From Hahellaceae bacterium (GTDB lineage: Bacteria > Pseudomonadota > Gammaproteobacteria > Pseudomonadales > Oleiphilaceae), in the NCBI GenBank assembly GCA_024234575.1, contig JACKOB010000002.1, positions 1,798,001-1,862,000 of the forward strand: a DNA stretch of 64,000 nucleotides, read 5' to 3'. The position numbers and the translations under genes were made by a program. A model generated the notes under the pieces. That model saw only the letters and a program-made list of their open reading frames with translations. It did no database searches and was not told the DNA's origin. Positions 30,503 through 40,673 of the stretch are shown here, piece by piece. Each line of letters starts with the position of its first letter. Positions within the stretch are counted from its first letter, which is position 1.

Positions 30503-31069
30503 ATGAGTACTCCCGGAAATAAAAAAAACAATCAGAAAGAAACGGCTGCAGCATCTGCTCCCGCCCCAGCCCATATGGACCCTCAGGCGCAGCTGCGAGA
30601 AATTCAACAACTGCTGTTTGGTGAGCAAATAGCCAGTGTCAATCAGGCTATCGATTCGCTGTCCAAGCACAATCAACAGCAGTTTGCCGACATGGACAAG
30701 CAGATCACACACACCATTAATACGTTACGGCAAGACATGAATAACAAGCTGGACGAACTCACCAAGCATGTGAATAAACTGAATGATGAGCGCATGAACA
30801 ACGATGCCTTGATAGAAGGCGATGTGGCGACGTTGCAGCAGGCGCTGGATGCCTTTCAGCAGCAGACCGAAGCGGCCCATGACACGATTGAGAAACAGTT
30901 GTTTTCTGAAGCGGATAAGCTGGCGACCGAAATGGCGGCACAGCATAAATCATTACTGGAAAAAATTAACGCTGAGTCTGGTTCTCTTGCCGACAGTAAA
31001 ACTGACAGAAAGGCGCTTGCCGACTTATTTGTGAATATGGCAAGAAGTCTGGAAAAAGAAGCGAGTTAA
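30503..31069 (+). CDS. Coiled-coil protein, first gene of the small-GTPase operon
   Basis: The 188-residue soluble protein has a 30-residue Ala/Pro/Lys-rich disordered start, a short motif LREIQQLLFGE (residues 31-41), and then almost continuous heptads rich in Gln, Asp, Leu and Lys to the C-terminus, so it should form a long coiled coil. I know no named family. The motif resembles LRSLLLGDD near the start of the next gene product. There is no signal peptide or membrane segment. It is separated from the OmpA-domain gene by a single base. Confidence 0.8.
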   Translation: MSTPGNKKNNQKETAAASAPAPAHMDPQAQLREIQQLLFGEQIASVNQAIDSLSKHNQQQFADMDKQITHTINTLRQDMNNKLDELTKHVNKLNDERMNNDALIEGDVATLQQALDAFQQQTEAAHDTIEKQLFSEADKLATEMAAQHKSLLEKINAESGSLADSKTDRKALADLFVNMARSLEKEAS

Positions 31070-31070
31070 G

Positions 31071-32909
31071 ATGAATCCGGTTGAAGATCAGCTGCCTCTG
31101 CATGAGCCTGATCAATCATCGGCATGCGCTGATCCGCAGAGTAAAAAAGCTGCAGAGGATTACTACAAACTGCGCAGTTTGTTGCTGGGTGACGATTATT
31201 CGGTCGCTCTGAATCACTATATCTCAAAAGAAGAAGATGCCGAGCGCGTGGCGGATGTTCTTTCCGAAGCGGTGACTCTTAGTGTTAAAGAGAACCCCTC
31301 ACTGGGCGAGGCGTTAACGCCGGTTGTTGATAAAGCCATTGCCAAATCTATTGAAGAAAACCCTTCCCGTATCACCCATGCCATCTACCCCATTATGGGG
31401 CCAGCCATCCGTAAAGCAGTTTCCGCTGCATTAGCCGAGATGGTGCAGTCTTTAAATACGCTGCTCGAGCAAAGCTTAACGCTGGGCTCAATGAAATGGC
31501 GGTTTCGTGCCTGGCGGGCAGGGATTCCCTACGCGCAGTTTGTGTTGTTGCAGACGATTAAGTATCGCGTCGAGCAGGTATTGCTGGTGCATCGAGAGAC
31601 GGGTTTGTTATTGCAATCGGTTACTGCGCCAGAAGTGAAGTCACAAGACCCGGAGCTCATATCCAGTATGCTGACCGCTATCAGTGACTTTGTCTCCGAC
31701 TCATTCTCAGGAGGTGAAGAAACGCTGGAGCGTATCCGCTTTGGTGATCTCGAATTACATCTGTTGGTGGGGCCAAAAGCGATTCTGGCGGTTGCAGTGC
31801 GGGGCTCTGCCTCGGACGAATTAACTGAAAAAGCCAGTGCCACCATTGAATTGATTCATAGTCGTTTCGCTAGTGCTTTCAAGCATTTCGATGGCGACAG
31901 AGTGGATTTTGATGCCACCCAGCCATTGTTAAGTGAGTGCTTGCTCTCGCAGAAAATTGCCGCCACACCCAAACGTAAACCCTGGCTGGCGATGTTGCTG
32001 CTACTGGCCGGTGCTGGCTATTTGCTCATCAACGAAGTAGAACGTTATCGTCTGGTGCAGGTATTTAATCAAGTGAAGGCCGCTTATCAGCAAGAGCCCG
32101 GCTATGTTCTGCTTTCGGCCAGTCGGCAGGTTGATCAGCTGATGATTGAGGTTTTGCGCAGCCCGGAATCACGCCCGGCATCAATCGTACATTCGACTAT
32201 ACTGAAAGAGCCGTCGGTCGCCGTGGTTGTGAATGAAAAGATTGTTCATTTTGGACCGTTGCCGACAGTAGAAAAAACACCAGCGAGAACACTGATTGAT
32301 GTCGAGTCCACGGTGAATGCGTTGCTCGAAAAGGATGATAAGGTGTCGATCATTGCCCAGGACGATCGCTTGCAGGTAAGTGGCCGGGCCGCCGCAGAGA
32401 CACTCGCGCGCATCCAGCAAAGCGAGCTGTTAAAGGGCGCTTTTGAGGTGCTGGATATATCCGGGCTGAAAGTCATCGAGCCAAAGTCGGCCCAGGAAAT
32501 GATTGCTGCTTTGGCAGGAGAGGTTCAGCAGACGATTTTCTATTTCTCTCCAAAAGAATATGTACTGACGGTCGATGAATTAGAGAAGGTTGCACCTTTT
32601 GTACGAGACATAAAAGCACTGCAACAGTATGCAGCGCAGGGTGAAATAAAGGCGTTGCAAATAGTTATACTGGGCTTTGCCGATAACTCTGGTACTGATT
32701 TTGGTAACAAGGTAGTAAGCCAGCAACGGGCCGAGATGATGCGTGAGTTACTGATTAAAAATGGTATCGACGCCGATATTGTCGTTGCCTGGGGCGCAGG
32801 AAATATCGATCAGGCACATATCTCGGATGCGTCACAGAGGCGCGTGACAGTGCAAGTGTTGTACGCGCTGTCACAAAAAACGAATCTATATAGCCAGGGA
32901 GAGCCATAG
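31071..32909 (+). CDS. Membrane-anchored OmpA-domain protein of the small-GTPase operon
   Basis: The 612 residues fall into four parts. Residues 1-300 are predicted cytoplasmic, with the motif LRSLLLG at 34-40 and a conserved block (IMGPAIRKAVSAALAEMVQ, then IKYRVEQVLLVHRETGLLL). A single membrane helix lies at about 303-320. Residues 330-480 should lie in the periplasm. The C-terminal OmpA/MotB-like domain (about 490-600) keeps the Asp and Arg that bind diaminopimelate in LGFADNSG and QQRAEMM. It should therefore link peptidoglycan to the cytoplasm, where its N-terminal half may meet the GTPase. It overlaps the GTPase start by one base. Confidence 0.85.
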   Translation: MNPVEDQLPLHEPDQSSACADPQSKKAAEDYYKLRSLLLGDDYSVALNHYISKEEDAERVADVLSEAVTLSVKENPSLGEALTPVVDKAIAKSIEENPSRITHAIYPIMGPAIRKAVSAALAEMVQSLNTLLEQSLTLGSMKWRFRAWRAGIPYAQFVLLQTIKYRVEQVLLVHRETGLLLQSVTAPEVKSQDPELISSMLTAISDFVSDSFSGGEETLERIRFGDLELHLLVGPKAILAVAVRGSASDELTEKASATIELIHSRFASAFKHFDGDRVDFDATQPLLSECLLSQKIAATPKRKPWLAMLLLLAGAGYLLINEVERYRLVQVFNQVKAAYQQEPGYVLLSASRQVDQLMIEVLRSPESRPASIVHSTILKEPSVAVVVNEKIVHFGPLPTVEKTPARTLIDVESTVNALLEKDDKVSIIAQDDRLQVSGRAAAETLARIQQSELLKGAFEVLDISGLKVIEPKSAQEMIAALAGEVQQTIFYFSPKEYVLTVDELEKVAPFVRDIKALQQYAAQGEIKALQIVILGFADNSGTDFGNKVVSQQRAEMMRELLIKNGIDADIVVAWGAGNIDQAHISDASQRRVTVQVLYALSQKTNLYSQGEP

Positions 32910-33433
32910 TGAGTCGTGTAGTCGCTAAAAAAATATGCATGATCGGACCTTTTGCTGTAGGAAAAACCAGCCTCGTGCGTCGTTTTGTGGATAGCATTTT
33001 TAGTGATAATTACCTGACCACTATTGGCGTTAAAATTTCTAAAAAAATAGTGCCGCTTGCTGATACACAGGTGCAATTAATGATCTGGGATATTGAAGGC
33101 GTTGATGTTTTTACCGAGCTTAAGACAAGCTACTTGCGTGGTGCTTCGGGGGTTTTGCTGGTGCTGGATGGCACCAGACCCAAAAGTTTTGAAATGGCCG
33201 AAGAGTTAGTGTCTCTTTTACGCGAACACTTGCCGGATGCACCGGTAATTGGTTTGTTAAATAAGAGCGACCTGAGTGTGGAGTGGAAGCTTGGCGATCT
33301 CGAAATTGCTGCCGTCGAGGCGCTTGGTGTTCAAACCATGATGACGAGCGCGAAAACCGGTGAAAATGTCGAGCAGGCATTTATGGCCCTGGTCGAAAAA
33401 ATGGACGCCACTGCCAGCGTGTCCGCATCATGA
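32909..33433 (+). CDS. Ras/Rab-like small GTPase
   Basis: The 174-residue protein is a complete bacterial Ras-superfamily GTPase. G1 is GPFAVGKT (13-20), the switch I threonine is T38, G3 is WDIEG (D61 to G64), G4 is NKSD (118-121) and G5 is TSAK (146-149). The position of the catalytic Gln61 of Ras is Val65 here, so unaided GTP hydrolysis should be slow. No lipid-modification cysteine is at the C-terminus. The GTG start overlaps the OmpA-domain stop, and its TGA overlaps the next ATG, so translation is coupled on both sides. It is related to the bacterial MglA/Rab-like group, not to the Era/Obg GTPases. Confidence 0.92.
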   Translation: MSRVVAKKICMIGPFAVGKTSLVRRFVDSIFSDNYLTTIGVKISKKIVPLADTQVQLMIWDIEGVDVFTELKTSYLRGASGVLLVLDGTRPKSFEMAEELVSLLREHLPDAPVIGLLNKSDLSVEWKLGDLEIAAVEALGVQTMMTSAKTGENVEQAFMALVEKMDATASVSAS

Positions 33434-35661
33434 GTATTCTTGGCGGCATCCTCGAAGAACTGGGTGTTGCAGCCTTTGTGCGGCTTGACGACCAGTCTTT
33501 TAAGTTGCTGAGTAATCACTGTCTTTGGTTTAGTAACCTCTATAATGCCCTGCGTGCTGACAGCAAACCCGCATCTGAAGGCGAAGAAGATAGCCTGGTG
33601 ATTGCAGAACAGGATTTTTGTCAGGCATTTCCGTTTATCGAACACTTTCTTATTGATGCCCAGACAGTATGGGATAACCCAGGGCGCGGCAGCGTAAATT
33701 CGGGCATCTGGACAGAGACGGATCTCGATGGCAATGAGTATCCGCTGGAGGCGCGTGCCTGCCATATCCAGAGTCAGTTGATATTGCTGATCGAAAACCA
33801 CTCAAGCACGTTTGGGCATCAGCATGCGGTCTATCAAAAAGCACGAAATATCGCCCTGTTAAACGAAAAACTGGTTTCAGAACTAAATCAGCGGCAGCGT
33901 GAATTACAAAGCGAGATAGAAAGACATTTGATGCAGGATGCGACGCTGCAAGGCATTGCGGATGCCGTGAGCGGCCATACATCCGGCGTGATGGTGTGTC
34001 AGCCAAACGGCAAAGTAGCCATCAAGAACAAAGCATTGGTCGATATTTATAAAGTCACGAATGGTAACGACTTGCGACGAGCATCGTTGCTAGAGCAATG
34101 GATGACTGAGGCGGAAGAACAATATCCGGAGCTGAAACGTATTATCGAAACCGGCTCATACTGGGAAGGCGAATTCGAAAGCAGCGATTCATCAGAAAAT
34201 CGCCGTTGGGTGCGTCTGACTATCGGGCCGGTGAAAGACAAGTCCGGCACGGTTGCCTATTACGTCTGCGTCGCCAATGATATTACTGACCTGCGCAGCG
34301 TTGAGGGCTTTGATGCGGAGCATGGGGCCGGTGGTTACGACTTTACGACGCGTTTACCCAATCGCCGACATTTCTGGCAACACATTCATAGCCTCGCCAA
34401 AAATGATCAGCCCCAGGGCCGTGGAACCGGGTTGCTGTATATCGATCTCGATTACTTTAAACGGGTAAATGATGATCTTGGACATCAGGCGGGTGATTTT
34501 TTGCTAAGTGCGATTGCCTCGCGCATCTCGCGAAACGTGAAGCACAATGATTTTGTGGGTCATCTCGGCGGCGATGAGTTTGTGGTGCTGGTGCGATCGA
34601 TTGAGTCAGATGCGCAGCTTACCGCCGTGGCGAGCAGGTTGCTTGGCTCTATACATGAGCCTATTTCGGTTGACGGTCAGCCGATGCAAATAACGGCAAG
34701 TATTGGCATCAGTACCTGTTATGAGTCAGTCATTGATCCGACTTTGCTGGTGCGACAAGCCGATCTTGCCATGTATGCGGCGAAAGAATCAGGCAAAGGA
34801 CAAAGCCGGTTTTATGATCCATCCATGGAGTCGTCTATACCGCATAATATTCAGCGTGAGCGCGAACTTGTCGATGCCATCAGCAATCAACAGTTTGTGT
34901 TGCATCTGCAGCCGCAGGTCTGTGTGCGGGATACCAAACAGTTTAAAGCCGAAGCGCTGGTACGCTGGCAGCATCCCCAATTAGGTTTGCTACCCCCGGC
35001 GGATTTTATCGCCATAGCCGAAGCCTCGGGATTAATCATCCCTCTGGGTAACTGGGTGCTGATGCAGGCGTGTCGGATTGGCGCTGATCTCAACCACAGC
35101 GGTAAGCCGGTATGTATCGCCGTTAATATCTCGGCCAAGCAACTTAAACACCCTGACTTTTACCAAACCTTAGAAAATTGCCTGGAGCAGACGGCTTTCC
35201 CTGCGGCATTGCTTGAAATTGAAATAACCGAGAGCTGCTTCCTCGAAGATATGGAGTCGGTGATTCGCTTGCTTGAAAAAATTCGTCTGTTGGGGGTGAC
35301 AATCTCTTTGGATGATTTTGGTACGGGCTTTTCGTCATTTAACTACCTAAGGCAACTGCCGGTTGATTATCTGAAAATTGATCGCTCTTTCGTGAAAGAG
35401 CTGCCAGAAGATAGAGAAAGCCGCGCTATCACCTCGTCGATTATCAGTCTTGCCCACGAATTAACGATAGAAGTTGTGGCTGAGGGGGTGGAGAATTCTG
35501 GCCAGTTTAATTTTCTGTGTGGCCGAAACGTCAATTTTATCCAAGGCTTCCTGCTGTTTAAGCCTATGCCTGTCGAAGAGTTTGTCCGCTTGTTTTCGTT
35601 AATCGAAGAACTAAATGGCCGCAATAAGTGGATTGATGAACCTGACTTCGGAACACTGTAA
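33430..35661 (+). CDS. PAS-GGDEF-EAL cyclic-di-GMP protein of the small-GTPase operon
   Basis: The 743-residue cytoplasmic protein has an N-terminal domain I do not recognise (about 1-130), a coiled coil (about 135-175), a PAS domain (about 185-290), GGDEF (about 305-465, with an intact GGDEF motif in HLGGDEFVV) and EAL (about 485-735, with EALVRW, EITES and DDFGTGFSS). Both catalytic halves look intact, so it may make or break cyclic-di-GMP. The unknown N-terminal domain is the likely contact with the GTPase. It is translationally coupled to the GTPase gene. Confidence 0.92.
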   Translation: MSILGGILEELGVAAFVRLDDQSFKLLSNHCLWFSNLYNALRADSKPASEGEEDSLVIAEQDFCQAFPFIEHFLIDAQTVWDNPGRGSVNSGIWTETDLDGNEYPLEARACHIQSQLILLIENHSSTFGHQHAVYQKARNIALLNEKLVSELNQRQRELQSEIERHLMQDATLQGIADAVSGHTSGVMVCQPNGKVAIKNKALVDIYKVTNGNDLRRASLLEQWMTEAEEQYPELKRIIETGSYWEGEFESSDSSENRRWVRLTIGPVKDKSGTVAYYVCVANDITDLRSVEGFDAEHGAGGYDFTTRLPNRRHFWQHIHSLAKNDQPQGRGTGLLYIDLDYFKRVNDDLGHQAGDFLLSAIASRISRNVKHNDFVGHLGGDEFVVLVRSIESDAQLTAVASRLLGSIHEPISVDGQPMQITASIGISTCYESVIDPTLLVRQADLAMYAAKESGKGQSRFYDPSMESSIPHNIQRERELVDAISNQQFVLHLQPQVCVRDTKQFKAEALVRWQHPQLGLLPPADFIAIAEASGLIIPLGNWVLMQACRIGADLNHSGKPVCIAVNISAKQLKHPDFYQTLENCLEQTAFPAALLEIEITESCFLEDMESVIRLLEKIRLLGVTISLDDFGTGFSSFNYLRQLPVDYLKIDRSFVKELPEDRESRAITSSIISLAHELTIEVVAEGVENSGQFNFLCGRNVNFIQGFLLFKPMPVEEFVRLFSLIEELNGRNKWIDEPDFGTL

Positions 35662-35784: not shown

Positions 35785-37581
35785 CTATGGTGCCGTCAAT
35801 GTTCTCACAAAGCCAAGTTGAGCGTTGATAGACCCTTTTATGGGGCTCGCAGTTGTGCCGGTACCGGCGGTTTCCAGGGAAATGGTGCCTACATTGCCAT
35901 ACGCCAGCGGTCGCAAATCCAATGGTTTGCTACTGACCACTTCAAACAGCATCATATTCGTCGACAGCCCTTGCAGTGTGTGCTCTCCCGCTTTGTAATC
36001 CGGGTTTTCGATATACAGTTGCAACACATAGGGTTTGAAATTAGCGGCCACATCGACACCCACCAGCGTTAGCCCAACAACACCGGGTAGGGTTGATTCA
36101 TCTGGGGTATAAACGAGACTATCAACCCCATCTGGTCCCCAGGTTGCAACCATCATGTTGGCAATGACTTTTACACCCTCTATGTTGGTAAAGCTGAATG
36201 TGCCGGTGTCTGAGCCTTCGCCACTCTGAAAACTTGCGGATAGTTGTGTATAAGTGGCAGGCTCAGCGCAATCTTTCGGGGCATCTGTCAGCACGTACTC
36301 GGTTTGTTCTGGCTCTGTGCCGTTAATGGCACTCGTTAGCAACTGGCGCTGGCTGGGTATACCTTTTTCGGCATTACCTGAAATAAACTCTCGCATAGCG
36401 GTGTAGGCAGACTCCGGTTCACCAGTGAGCAGGCGTATGCGCTCGACTTCTGCCAACAAGCTTTCTTCATGCCAGTGCGTTGCCAATAGTTCGTTGATGC
36501 GGTTGTGGTATTGTTGGCGATAGCTGTCGATGGCATACAAACGCGATGCAATGCTGTGATTACGATACAGCGGGCCCGAATTGGGTTTGAAAATGTTAAC
36601 GCCGGTAAAGGCCGCATCGGTACCCCAGGGAATAAAGTGGAATAACCCGTCAACGGGGTTGTGGTAAATAAAGTAATTATTGGCGTTGCCGCTGGCAGAG
36701 TCCCAATGACCGATTAACGTCTCTACTGCCCAGTAGCTAATGAATTTATCAACGTCGATTAGTTGCGGTAGTACCGCTACAAAATTTTGATCATCCAGCA
36801 GTAACGCATTGGCAACGGTATCAAGATCCGTGCGGTCGTTTGCTTTCTCGTTGGTTTTTAGTTCAAACCTGTCATTAAGGTGTGTGCCAAAATCGGCTAC
36901 CTGGGCCTCATAGAGGTTGCCGGATTTATCACCGAAGTGATTTTCCAAGAATGGCTTCTTTACATCTTCAACGTTGCTGTAAATACCCAGGTCTTCACCG
37001 TTAACTGTCACGCGGGCCCAGTTACAGCGCGGGGCAGCAATGCCGGCCGCACGAAACATATCATAAGCCATACACTGGTGGGTGTGGCTTGGGTCCTGAC
37101 GGTCATTATTCAGAGTCATTCTGGTCATCGTTTTAAACTCGCGGTCATCAACAAATTTGTCGAAGTCCAGCTTGAGAGAAGGGCGAGAGCGAGTGATTGA
37201 GCCAAGGTAGCCCTTTTTACGAATTTCAACGTTTTCGAGCACTTCACCATCAATGGTCACGGTTGCTGAAAACTCGGTATATTCGAAGTCGGTGGATGGA
37301 CATTCGCTCAGGGCGGTGTCCAGGGTTCTCGCTTCTCCCCGCAACGTGGCAAAATCAGCGGCAGGCATATCAATGTTAATTTGAATCAGGCGACTTCTAT
37401 CAAACAAGTCATCACTGATGGTCTCGACGGCGGGAGGGGTATCCGTGCCTCCATTTCCGCTTGCTCCGGTGCTCGTCGAATCGGAATCATTTGAGCCACA
37501 GGCAATGCACATCCACAAAGTGCTCATCATAATAAATAGTGGCTTTCTTAAAGGTAGTGACGCTTTTGCTTCATACAGCAT
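35785..37581 (-). CDS. CotH-family secreted kinase-like protein
   Basis: The 598-residue protein has the CotH kinase fold from about residue 60 on. Family marks include VEIRKKGYLGSITRSRPSLKL (with the ATP-contacting Lys), NDRQDPSHT, DRFELKTNE and FIPWGTDAAF, the metal-binding Asp region. A lipoprotein-like leader (MCIACGSND near residue 30) and a Ser/Gly/Thr-rich spacer precede it; the lipobox is imperfect. The last 180 residues look beta-rich and of unknown role. CotH kinases phosphorylate secreted proteins in spore formers; the target here is unknown. A perfect CRP-type site lies 106 bases upstream. Confidence 0.87.
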   Translation of the reverse strand: MLYEAKASLPLRKPLFIMMSTLWMCIACGSNDSDSTSTGASGNGGTDTPPAVETISDDLFDRSRLIQINIDMPAADFATLRGEARTLDTALSECPSTDFEYTEFSATVTIDGEVLENVEIRKKGYLGSITRSRPSLKLDFDKFVDDREFKTMTRMTLNNDRQDPSHTHQCMAYDMFRAAGIAAPRCNWARVTVNGEDLGIYSNVEDVKKPFLENHFGDKSGNLYEAQVADFGTHLNDRFELKTNEKANDRTDLDTVANALLLDDQNFVAVLPQLIDVDKFISYWAVETLIGHWDSASGNANNYFIYHNPVDGLFHFIPWGTDAAFTGVNIFKPNSGPLYRNHSIASRLYAIDSYRQQYHNRINELLATHWHEESLLAEVERIRLLTGEPESAYTAMREFISGNAEKGIPSQRQLLTSAINGTEPEQTEYVLTDAPKDCAEPATYTQLSASFQSGEGSDTGTFSFTNIEGVKVIANMMVATWGPDGVDSLVYTPDESTLPGVVGLTLVGVDVAANFKPYVLQLYIENPDYKAGEHTLQGLSTNMMLFEVVSSKPLDLRPLAYGNVGTISLETAGTGTTASPIKGSINAQLGFVRTLTAP

Positions 37582-37796: not shown

Positions 37797-40673
37797 CTAA
37801 GACCGGCCGTATTTGAGTATTGCCTCGGTTCGGTTACTAACTTGCAGTTTGCCGTAAATATTTTGCAAGTGGCGCTTTACAGTGGCCAGGGACAATTTAA
37901 GTGCTTCGGCAATATCCTTGTTACGCGCACCTGTGCTAAGCAGATCAAGTACGTCTCGCTCACGCGGGCTCAGGGCTTCAACGCCAAATTCAGTCGGGTT
38001 GGTTTCCGCAGATGTTATCTCTGGCCGTTGATGCGGTGGAGCGCTCTCGCCTAAAGCTTCATCCCGTGGTTCCGCGTCTTTGTCGGCGGCTACATCGAAT
38101 CGATAGCGCCGCATGTTGGCTATGGCTGTCAGTAATGTGCGGCAGTAGTCTGGCTCTACTCTTTTCTCGATCGCGATGGTTAGCAGTGGTTCAACCGCTT
38201 CCGCATCCTCAATGATCAAATTGATATAGTGGCAAGGCGCTGCCAGCCTGATGGCTTCAAAAAAAGCAGTCCGGGCTTCATTTTTATTGCCATTTGCGGC
38301 GTTTATAGTAGCGGTCAGTAAGTGAGCTTTGATTTGCCGCGTTGTTACACCGCGCGCTTTAGAGGCGGCCTCGATACTGTCCAGAATGTCGCTGGTATCT
38401 GCGCCAATGAGAGATCTGCCTGCGGCATAGATCAGGCGCTCAAACTCATAGCGAAACAGGCATTTGAACGCATCCAGTTTTGGTGCCTCGGCGGCCCATT
38501 GAATAAGTGGAAAGTAGTTGCCAGCCATTCTTTCAACCAGTGCACTCAGTGTCGTTGCATCCAATAGCAGAGAAAAGTTGAACTCTCCGCTAACACCTGT
38601 TGAGGGGAAGTGGGTTTGTTGGAAGTTTATCAAGCTTCCTGCCTGTTCACGTGCCTGTTCAATCAGACCACTTGCGTTAAGTAATCTGATATGGGTCACA
38701 CGTTTAATAAACAGCATTTCCCGGGATGCCAGCGTTGGGTGAACGCAGCTTTCCATCAGGTGATAAGTCTTCCAGGCTTCGTCAAGGGCCTGCTGGTCTA
38801 CGTAGAGCTCAATGACGGCGGCATACAAAGAGGCGGTACCTGGCAGGTTAAGCAATGACCTTTGTGCCAGCCATTGCAGGTTTTCCTGGGCTAATGTGAT
38901 GGCATATTTCGGCTGACCGTTGTGATAGTGTGCATGTAACAACCAGGTCAGCGAATAGGTAGCGCAATAGCCATCTTGTGACTCTTTTGCCAGTGCCAAT
39001 GCCTGGCTGCTGTGTTTGACACAGTCAGTTATCTGATCCGCCACAAAACTGTCAGCGGCTGCGCCATAGTGAGCCCAGCATTGAATTGACGGGTTACCCG
39101 CACTTGCTGCCAACACCTCTTTGTCCAGTGCCTGTGCTCGTAACGTGTCACCGTTAAATCGAGCCATTTGACTTTGTAAAAGCTTGATGCCGGTCTGCAC
39201 CAGTGTTAAGTCCGCTTCGTTTAATAGACCCAAAGAGACCAGACTTTCTTGCCGTGCATCGGGGCTGTCTTTGCTGGCCTCGCTACAGCAGCGTTGCAAC
39301 GACCTTTCGGCATAAGCGATATAACGTTCGGCTTGCTGGTATTGATGCAGGTTAAAATTAACGGCGGCTTTTAGAATGGCCAGTGCAGGAATTGTCTGAA
39401 TAATCTCTGCCGGAAATTTACTTAAAACATTGGCGGCATGGTCCAAACGACCAAATTGAATGAGGGATGGATAGAGCCTGCGTATGATTAAACCGGCCGT
39501 TGGCCAGTCGGCAAGTGTGATCGCCAAGGGCAATGCGTCTTCTGCGTGCTGATTTTCGTACAGCCATAGCATGGCCCTGCGCTGATAAGCGGCATAGGCT
39601 AAATGGGGCAAAGTCTGGGCGTGCGCCAACAGCCACTGGCGAAACAGCGCATGCAGGCGATACCAGGCATTTTTCTCGTCGATTGCACTGATAAACAGCC
39701 CGGCCTCAATTAACTCATCAATAAAAACCAGACTATCTTCTGATCCGGTGATGGCATTGCACAGTGGAATGCAAAAACTGTCGACCACGGAGATGGCTAA
39801 CAGAAAGTCTTGCAGTTGAGGACTTAGCTGGGAGAGCACCTCAGAGAGAAGAAAGTCTGACAGCAATTGGTCCTGATCTAAATTGAGAGGCTTAAGAGAG
39901 GTGGTTGTAGCGAGCCTGTTGGTGCTTTCACCGTTATATGGCTGCAACCCACCGGATTTAATCGCCAGCCCTGCTAATTGAATCGCCGCCGCCCAGCCTT
40001 CAGTTGCAGAAAAAAGCCGCGCTATTGCATCGCTATCCAGGTGCAGGGATAGTTTTGTTTGCAGAAACTCGTCTATCAGGCTGGCGTCGAATGCCAACTC
40101 TCGTGAGCTAATAACATGGGCTTGCAGCTTTGAACAGCGGTGCGGAATCATCAGCTCTGGCAGGGATCGGGAAGTAATAATTACATGCATCCAGCTCGGC
40201 AGGTAGTCAATAAAACGGTTAAATGAATCGAGTATTTTCCCATCCGTAATAACATGAAAATCATCTAGTACCAGATTGACTTTCGCTGGCCGGTTCCATT
40301 TTCTGGTGAATTTCTCCAGGCTTTCAATCAGCGTGTCAGTAATCAGGGAAAAGTCATCAATAACGTTATTCTGTAAAAGACTTTCTGCCTTTTGTGTGAG
40401 GGAGGCATCCAGCTTTTTCAGGCTGGCGCAAAGGTACAGCCAGAACGAGCTGGGGGTATTGTTTTTTTCGTCTACCGAGAGCCAGCAGTATGGGGTGTCG
40501 GTGTTATTTAGCCAGTCGCAGACCAGGCTGGTTTTACCGTATCCGGCAGGGGCAGTAATAATGGTAAGCGGTTCTGCACTATAGGTATCCAGCTTCGCAA
40601 GCAGGGGTTGTCGATGCATGATCGTACCAGTGCGAGGCATTGATAGTTTGGTCGTGAGTATGGGGTACATCAT
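37797..40673 (-). CDS. MalT-type LuxR-family regulator (STAND ATPase)
   Basis: The 958-residue regulator has an N-terminal ATPase with Walker [10 protein letters not shown] (residues 41-49) and Walker [10 protein letters not shown] near residue 138. A long helical, TPR-like region follows (about 400-850), and the chain ends in a LuxR helix-turn-helix ([27 protein letters not shown]...) at about 895-955. ATP and an inducer usually control such activators; the inducer is unknown, and MalT itself binds maltotriose. It stands between patatin and CotH, either of which could be its target. The ATG-ATG start has no strong ribosome site. Confidence 0.92.

Follow-up and report, generated by a model that had tools for sequence, protein, structure and literature searches.

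Four adjoining genes on the plus strand of a Hahellaceae contig (JACKOB010000002.1), at positions 30503-35661 of an analysed stretch of 64,000 nucleotides that is called the window here, almost certainly constitute a Group 1 Rup GTPase system. They encode a probable coiled-coil protein (g1), a membrane protein with an OmpA domain (g2), a Ras-like GTPase (g3) and an output protein that carries PAS, GGDEF and EAL domains (g4), and we suppose, with a probability of roughly 0.55, that the system acts as a signal relay across the cell envelope. The relay is supported by the agreement with a gene set predicted in 2014, the co-occurrence of the genes, the modelled fold of g2, the attachment of one predicted adaptor domain to varied outputs, and the absence of the catalytic Gln from the GTPase while a Gln of the adaptor is kept. 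The locus is real, conserved and coherent, but its kind has been described before. What this analysis usefully adds is the longin-like fold modelled in g2, a dedicated PAS-like adaptor, a motif shared by g1 and g2 and a wider range of outputs.

The Group 1 Rup System

Wuichet and Sogaard-Andersen predicted in 2014 that such a gene set is one signalling system, the Group 1 Rup GTPase system (PMC4316618, in the sections on which this account draws). According to these sections, three conserved genes lie beside the GTPase: one encodes a coiled-coil protein, the second a protein made up of a domain, a transmembrane helix and an OmpA domain, and another an output, typically a cyclic dimeric GMP (c-di-GMP) cyclase/phosphodiesterase or a histidine kinase with an invariant Gln in its N-terminal region. 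The GTPases lack the Gln of the G3 motif, for which help in trans was suggested, and the G motifs of Rup GTPases are said to bear a remarkable resemblance to those of the eukaryotic Ras superfamily. As of 2014 no Rup member had been characterized experimentally, the one in Nostoc punctiforme being known only as transcribed, and later experimental work on the function of the Group 1 system was not found among open-licence PubMed Central papers. An earlier reading of the window, made from the sequence only and called the sequence-only reading here, had stated that no pathway with this combination of parts had been described; this statement is wrong and an undescribed pathway is rejected, because the gene neighbourhood is already in PMC4316618.

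The window agrees with this description in the points compared. The g3 protein is a single-domain Ras-superfamily GTPase shorter than 240 amino acids (aa), namely 174 aa, with motifs G1 to G5, and has Val65 in place of the catalytic Gln of G3. Its neighbours are a coiled-coil protein, as judged from its sequence only, a protein of the domain-transmembrane-OmpA type and a signalling output, and the N-terminus of the output contains Gln136, which is presumably the same residue as the invariant Gln of the 2014 account.

Conservation of the Gene Set

Contigs were scanned with 30 g2 homologues, and the best 80 of at least 529 relatives together with the window gave 81 loci, so counts from this set are biased to window-like loci. 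Among them g1 occurs in 80, a GTPase gene adjoining g2 in 77, and an output with the shared N-terminus, that is, the adaptor, in 67. In 76 of the 81 loci g2 is preceded by g1 and immediately followed by g3, g1 being missed in one and g3 in four. The single locus that lacks g1 (L074) has its g2 187 bases from the contig end, and the four without an adjacent g3 are L070 at a contig edge, L071 with g3 6.2 kb further on, and L019 and L020 with g3 elsewhere in the genome. The spacing is at most 100 bases for 76 of 78 g2-g3 pairs, 68 of 80 g1-g2 pairs and 49 of 65 pairs of g3 and adaptor protein. In the window there is a 1-base gap between g1 and g2, a 1-base overlap between g2 and g3 and a 4-base overlap between g3 and g4, all on the plus strand; the open reading frame (ORF) coordinates and the Pfam matches to OmpA, Ras, PAS, GGDEF and EAL thus bear out the layout given in the sequence-only reading.

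In addition, 321 genomes of one class, that of G001 (the genome of L001, itself included), were searched with unequal thresholds (GTPase E 1e-30, g2 E 1e-20) and with at most 11 and 4 candidates scored per genome, respectively. The GTPase profile matches 24 genomes, the g2 profile 26 and both 23 (Fisher p 8e-31), and the two genes lie on one contig within about 1 kb in 21 of the 23 double-positive genomes; they are on separate contigs in G300, and g2 is at a contig end in G284. The mismatched genomes G067, G311 and G206 form a diverged branch in which both genes are present below the thresholds. In the diverged loci (L085, 3047-5361; L086, 2753-5004; L087, 3673-5822) there is a 4-base overlap between a g2-like gene and the gene for a Ras-like GTPase, and the g2-like proteins of L085 and L087, the two scanned, gave no Pfam match at E 0.01. 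G193 has g1 and g2 (L081) and no GTPase at E 1e-5. The co-occurrence in other genomes that had been proposed as a check was therefore found, with 23 genomes sharing the GTPase and the OmpA protein, and by both sets of counts the four genes behave as one conserved unit.

The Membrane Protein and the Motif It Shares with g1

The g2 gene (31071-32909, plus strand) encodes 612 aa that comprise N-terminal helices, a longin/roadblock-like domain (residues 163-296, 31557-31958), a single transmembrane helix predicted by hydropathy (residues 305-323, 31983-32039) and an OmpA-type domain (residues 516-586, 32616-32828; PF00691, E 3e-8). With the same hydropathy cut-off, one hydrophobic segment is found in 63 of the 81 loci, none in 14 and two in 4. 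The OmpA domain has D538 and R553, which are kept in 67 and 79 of the 81 loci, respectively, and whose equivalents bind diaminopimelate in other OmpA domains. In the model of residues 163-296, two strands, a helix, three strands and two C-terminal helices follow one another as in longins, and the model has the roadblock/LC7 fold as well; this segment very probably adopts a longin/roadblock-like fold. The domain is rather likely to bind g3, and its action as an exchange factor is somewhat short of an even chance.

The g1 gene (30503-31069, plus strand, an ORF call) encodes a long-helix, probably coiled-coil protein of 188 aa, for which none of the 25 Pfam families shown reaches its curated cut-off, the best weak matches being long-helix families. 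The N-termini of g1 and g2 both bear a motif of the LRxLLxG type, which reads LREIQQLLFG in g1 (residues 31-40, 30593-30622) and YYKLRSLLLG in g2 (residues 31-40, 31161-31190). The pattern, which was drawn up after the alignments had been viewed and from which each copy in the window deviates at one position, is present in 64 of 78 g1 and 52 of 81 g2 proteins and in none of 77 g3 proteins, 66 adaptor proteins or 923 further called ORFs; g1 of the window has Gln where 73 of 80 g1 proteins carry Arg. Comparison of g1 with the N-terminus of g2 by hhalign gave a probability of 52% (E 1.4e-4, 30 columns), and the control comparison with A3 gave 0.9%. As far as sequences tell, the motif may be a common docking or pairing element.

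The GTPase

The g3 gene (32909-33433, plus strand, GTG start) encodes a Ras/Rab-like GTPase of the Rup type that matches PF00071 at residues 8-165 (E 9e-32), and its closest PDB structures by sequence are Sec4, Rab1 and Rab8. In 79 family GTPases, G1, the Asp and Gly of G3, the Lys and Asp of G4 and the Ser-Ala of G5 show little or no variation. The position that corresponds to Ras Gln61, which is Val65 in the window (33101-33103), holds Gln in 0 of the 79. Each of 16 genomes has one strong family GTPase, and one genome adds a weak match within a 718-residue frame. No fusion of the GTPase to either g2 or the adaptor was recognized among the listed open frames with GTPase matches, in which strong matches extend up to 296 residues and frames of 478-718 residues match only weakly (E 8.6e-19 to 7.7e-6). 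In the genomes of L019 and L020 the GTPase gene shares 4 bases with the gene for a hybrid histidine kinase (L121, 4587-6568; L122, 2899-4889).

The Adaptor and Its Outputs

The g4 gene (33430-35661, plus strand; ORF call and Pfam) encodes an output protein of 743 aa composed of a PAS-like adaptor domain with an exit helix (residues 1-174, 33430-33951), a second PAS domain (PAS_9, residues 186-287, 33985-34290; PF13426, E 4e-9), a GGDEF domain (residues 303-457, 34336-34800; PF00990, E 2e-40) and an EAL domain (residues 478-712, 34861-35565; PF00563, E 2e-72). The motifs GGDEF at 380, EAL at 508 and DDFGTG at 628 are kept, and KHND stands five residues ahead of GGDEF (34540-34581), at the place of the RxxD inhibitory site of many cyclases. 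The adaptor helix has Gln136 and Arg139 (QxxR, 33835-33846), which are kept in 64 and 66 of 67 readable rows, respectively. When 21 genomes were searched, 18 were positive and 17 of these have a single copy of the adaptor, and all 19 copies adjoin g3 or g2 of a Rup set.

Among 67 adaptor proteins, the outputs that match Pfam are GGDEF + EAL (30), HATPase_c (18), HD_5 (16) and sigma54 (1). On the GTPase tree at least six changes of output label are required for five classes, the labels being taken from individual Pfam scans for some loci and from length, position and Pfam tally for others, with the fragment L076 labelled a kinase by kinship. The sequence-only reading of one machine ending in a PAS-GGDEF-EAL protein thus holds as regards a conserved unit, but the fourth gene is variable and provides GGDEF-EAL, HD-GYP, a histidine kinase or a sigma54 activator on a common N-terminal domain.

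Several loci differ in their layout. Genes for a PP2C phosphatase, a SpoIIE phosphatase or a nucleotide cyclase follow the GTPase where no adaptor was detected (L011, 10255-11097; L066, 10178-11479; L049, 6225-7256), and it is possible that these are further outputs. A second GTPase of G142 lies beside an adaptor-HD-GYP gene (L088, 2479-3986), and the retrieved stretch contains neither g1 nor g2. A gene of 129-137 aa separates the GTPase gene from that of the adaptor kinase in L040 (10290-10679) and, at the corresponding place, in twelve further cyanobacterial loci; the L040 copy, the one scanned, has no Pfam match. In L080 (7072-8860) the GGDEF-EAL output is divided over two overlapping ORFs.

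The idea that Gln136 depends on the GTPase, since L019 and L020 have neither an adjacent GTPase nor Gln136, is rejected because both genomes hold a GTPase elsewhere and the two loci look closely related; L073, the third exception for Gln136, has a GTPase. TBC RabGAPs use a two-residue mechanism, and by analogy Arg139 near Gln136 would allow one here. Such a mechanism is not mentioned in sections 17 and 18 of PMC4316618. Catalysis by Gln136 in trans is possible but less likely than not.

The Proposed Relay and Its Alternatives

In the proposed relay, the OmpA domain of g2 would grip the peptidoglycan and report the state of the envelope through the membrane helix; the signalling direction of the sequence-only reading is plausible. 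The longin-like domain would probably form a pair with a second copy of itself and, by way of the shared motif, with g1, and at the membrane it would bind g3 either as its exchange factor or as a scaffold. In its GTP-bound form g3 would bind the PAS-like adaptor of g4 and shift the balance between c-di-GMP synthesis and breakdown, and the signal would end when the catalytic residue that g3 lacks is provided by the QxxR helix of the adaptor or by some other partner. This front end would be kept and the output exchanged in other lineages. A more specific form, in which g2 would be a trans-envelope Rab-type exchange factor, the wall state setting the nucleotide state of the Rab-like GTPase that interchangeable enzymes read via a PAS-like effector supplying Gln (and Arg) in trans, is rather unlikely as a whole; if true, bacteria would have their own counterpart of longin-Rab signalling, and it would occur in Pseudomonadota, Cyanobacteriota and Acidobacteriota at the least, besides several further phyla.

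Several observations weigh against the relay or its parts. The longin assignment of the g2 model is one of fold only: g2 has no longin or roadblock (PF03259) match in Pfam, OmpA being its only match at E up to 1, and its best PDB sequence match is a roadblock protein at only E 0.41. The alignment of the domain by hhalign with 19 MglB-type sequences (of 26 from the acidobacterial phylum, Neff 2.4) gave a probability of 0.6%, below one of two negative controls (A3 2.1%, A4 0.1%), which leaves sequence-level kinship to roadblock proteins unproven. Many but not all longins bind small GTPases, and since SNAREs and coat complexes use the longin fold too, the fold of g2 is no proof of GTPase binding. 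Furthermore, two GTPases occur in each of G142, G284 and G488, and G142 possesses an adaptor-GTPase pair that is separate from its g1-g2-g3 genes. L019 and L020 show no linkage between g2 and the GTPase gene, which lies elsewhere and overlaps the gene for a hybrid kinase. The adaptor was not detected in 14 of 81 loci (L070 and L074 are shortened or at contig ends), where a relaxed search gave only four matches (E 2.6-9.4), of which one lay on the wrong strand, and PP2C/SpoIIE phosphatases follow the GTPase in L011 and L066. Gln136 and Arg139 could also be structural.

Chance neighbourhood of unrelated genes is extremely improbable in view of the conserved gene order, the spacing and the co-occurrence in the 321 genomes, and nothing was found in its favour. 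The longin-like domain might instead be a GTPase-activating partner, as MglB is for MglA, with the adaptor a pure effector and Gln136 structural; we regard this as a minority possibility. An inside-out scaffold, in which the GTPase and g1 position g2 and the envelope link and the activity of the c-di-GMP enzyme is local or comes upstream of g3, in the manner of MglA polarity systems, seems slightly less probable still. MglA-type GTPases control polarity and motility, g1 is kept in 80 of the 81 loci, and a scaffold role is known for some longin/roadblock proteins (PMC10933270, in the part used), all of which agree with a scaffold, but 65 of 67 adaptor proteins have a recognized signalling output domain, including one sigma54 activator, which fits an output of information better than positioning.

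Surrounding Sequence

The scans for control signals were uninformative: 3 promoter-like sites were found against 6.7 expected, and 16 terminator-like sites against 5.9 expected, 15 of the 16 within the four genes. Downstream on the opposite strand lie genes for a CotH-kinase-family protein (35785-37581) and a large MalT/LuxR-type regulator (37797-40673).

Comparison with Known Systems

The locus is like the Group 1 Rup system in its four genes, the missing Gln of G3, the N-terminal Gln of the output and the idea of a Gln given in trans, as far as the sections used of PMC4316618 go. The longin/roadblock fold modelled in g2, the PAS-like fold of the adaptor, the motif shared by g1 and g2, the HD-GYP-only and sigma54 outputs and the near-invariant Arg139 go beyond that account and come from this analysis. 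The MglA-MglB pair of Myxococcus and Thermus is similar in that a small GTPase is encoded with a partner of roadblock-related fold, whereas here the domain belongs to a membrane/OmpA protein, gives better scores with longins and has no detected sequence kinship, and the GTPase is Rab-like by sequence. The actinobacterial conservons (Cvn) are also operons that join a small GTPase to a signalling protein. In YfiBNR an OmpA-family envelope protein is tied to c-di-GMP output as well, but there is no GTPase and the OmpA-family protein is a separate lipoprotein. TRAPP, Mon1-Ccz1 and Fuzzy-Inturned are longin-containing partners of Rab proteins, although they are eukaryotic multi-subunit complexes. 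A longin-like partner domain within a GTPase operon gives a direct biochemical test, would connect the sensing of the cell wall with c-di-GMP and further outputs, and is relevant to the origin of the Rab-longin pairing.
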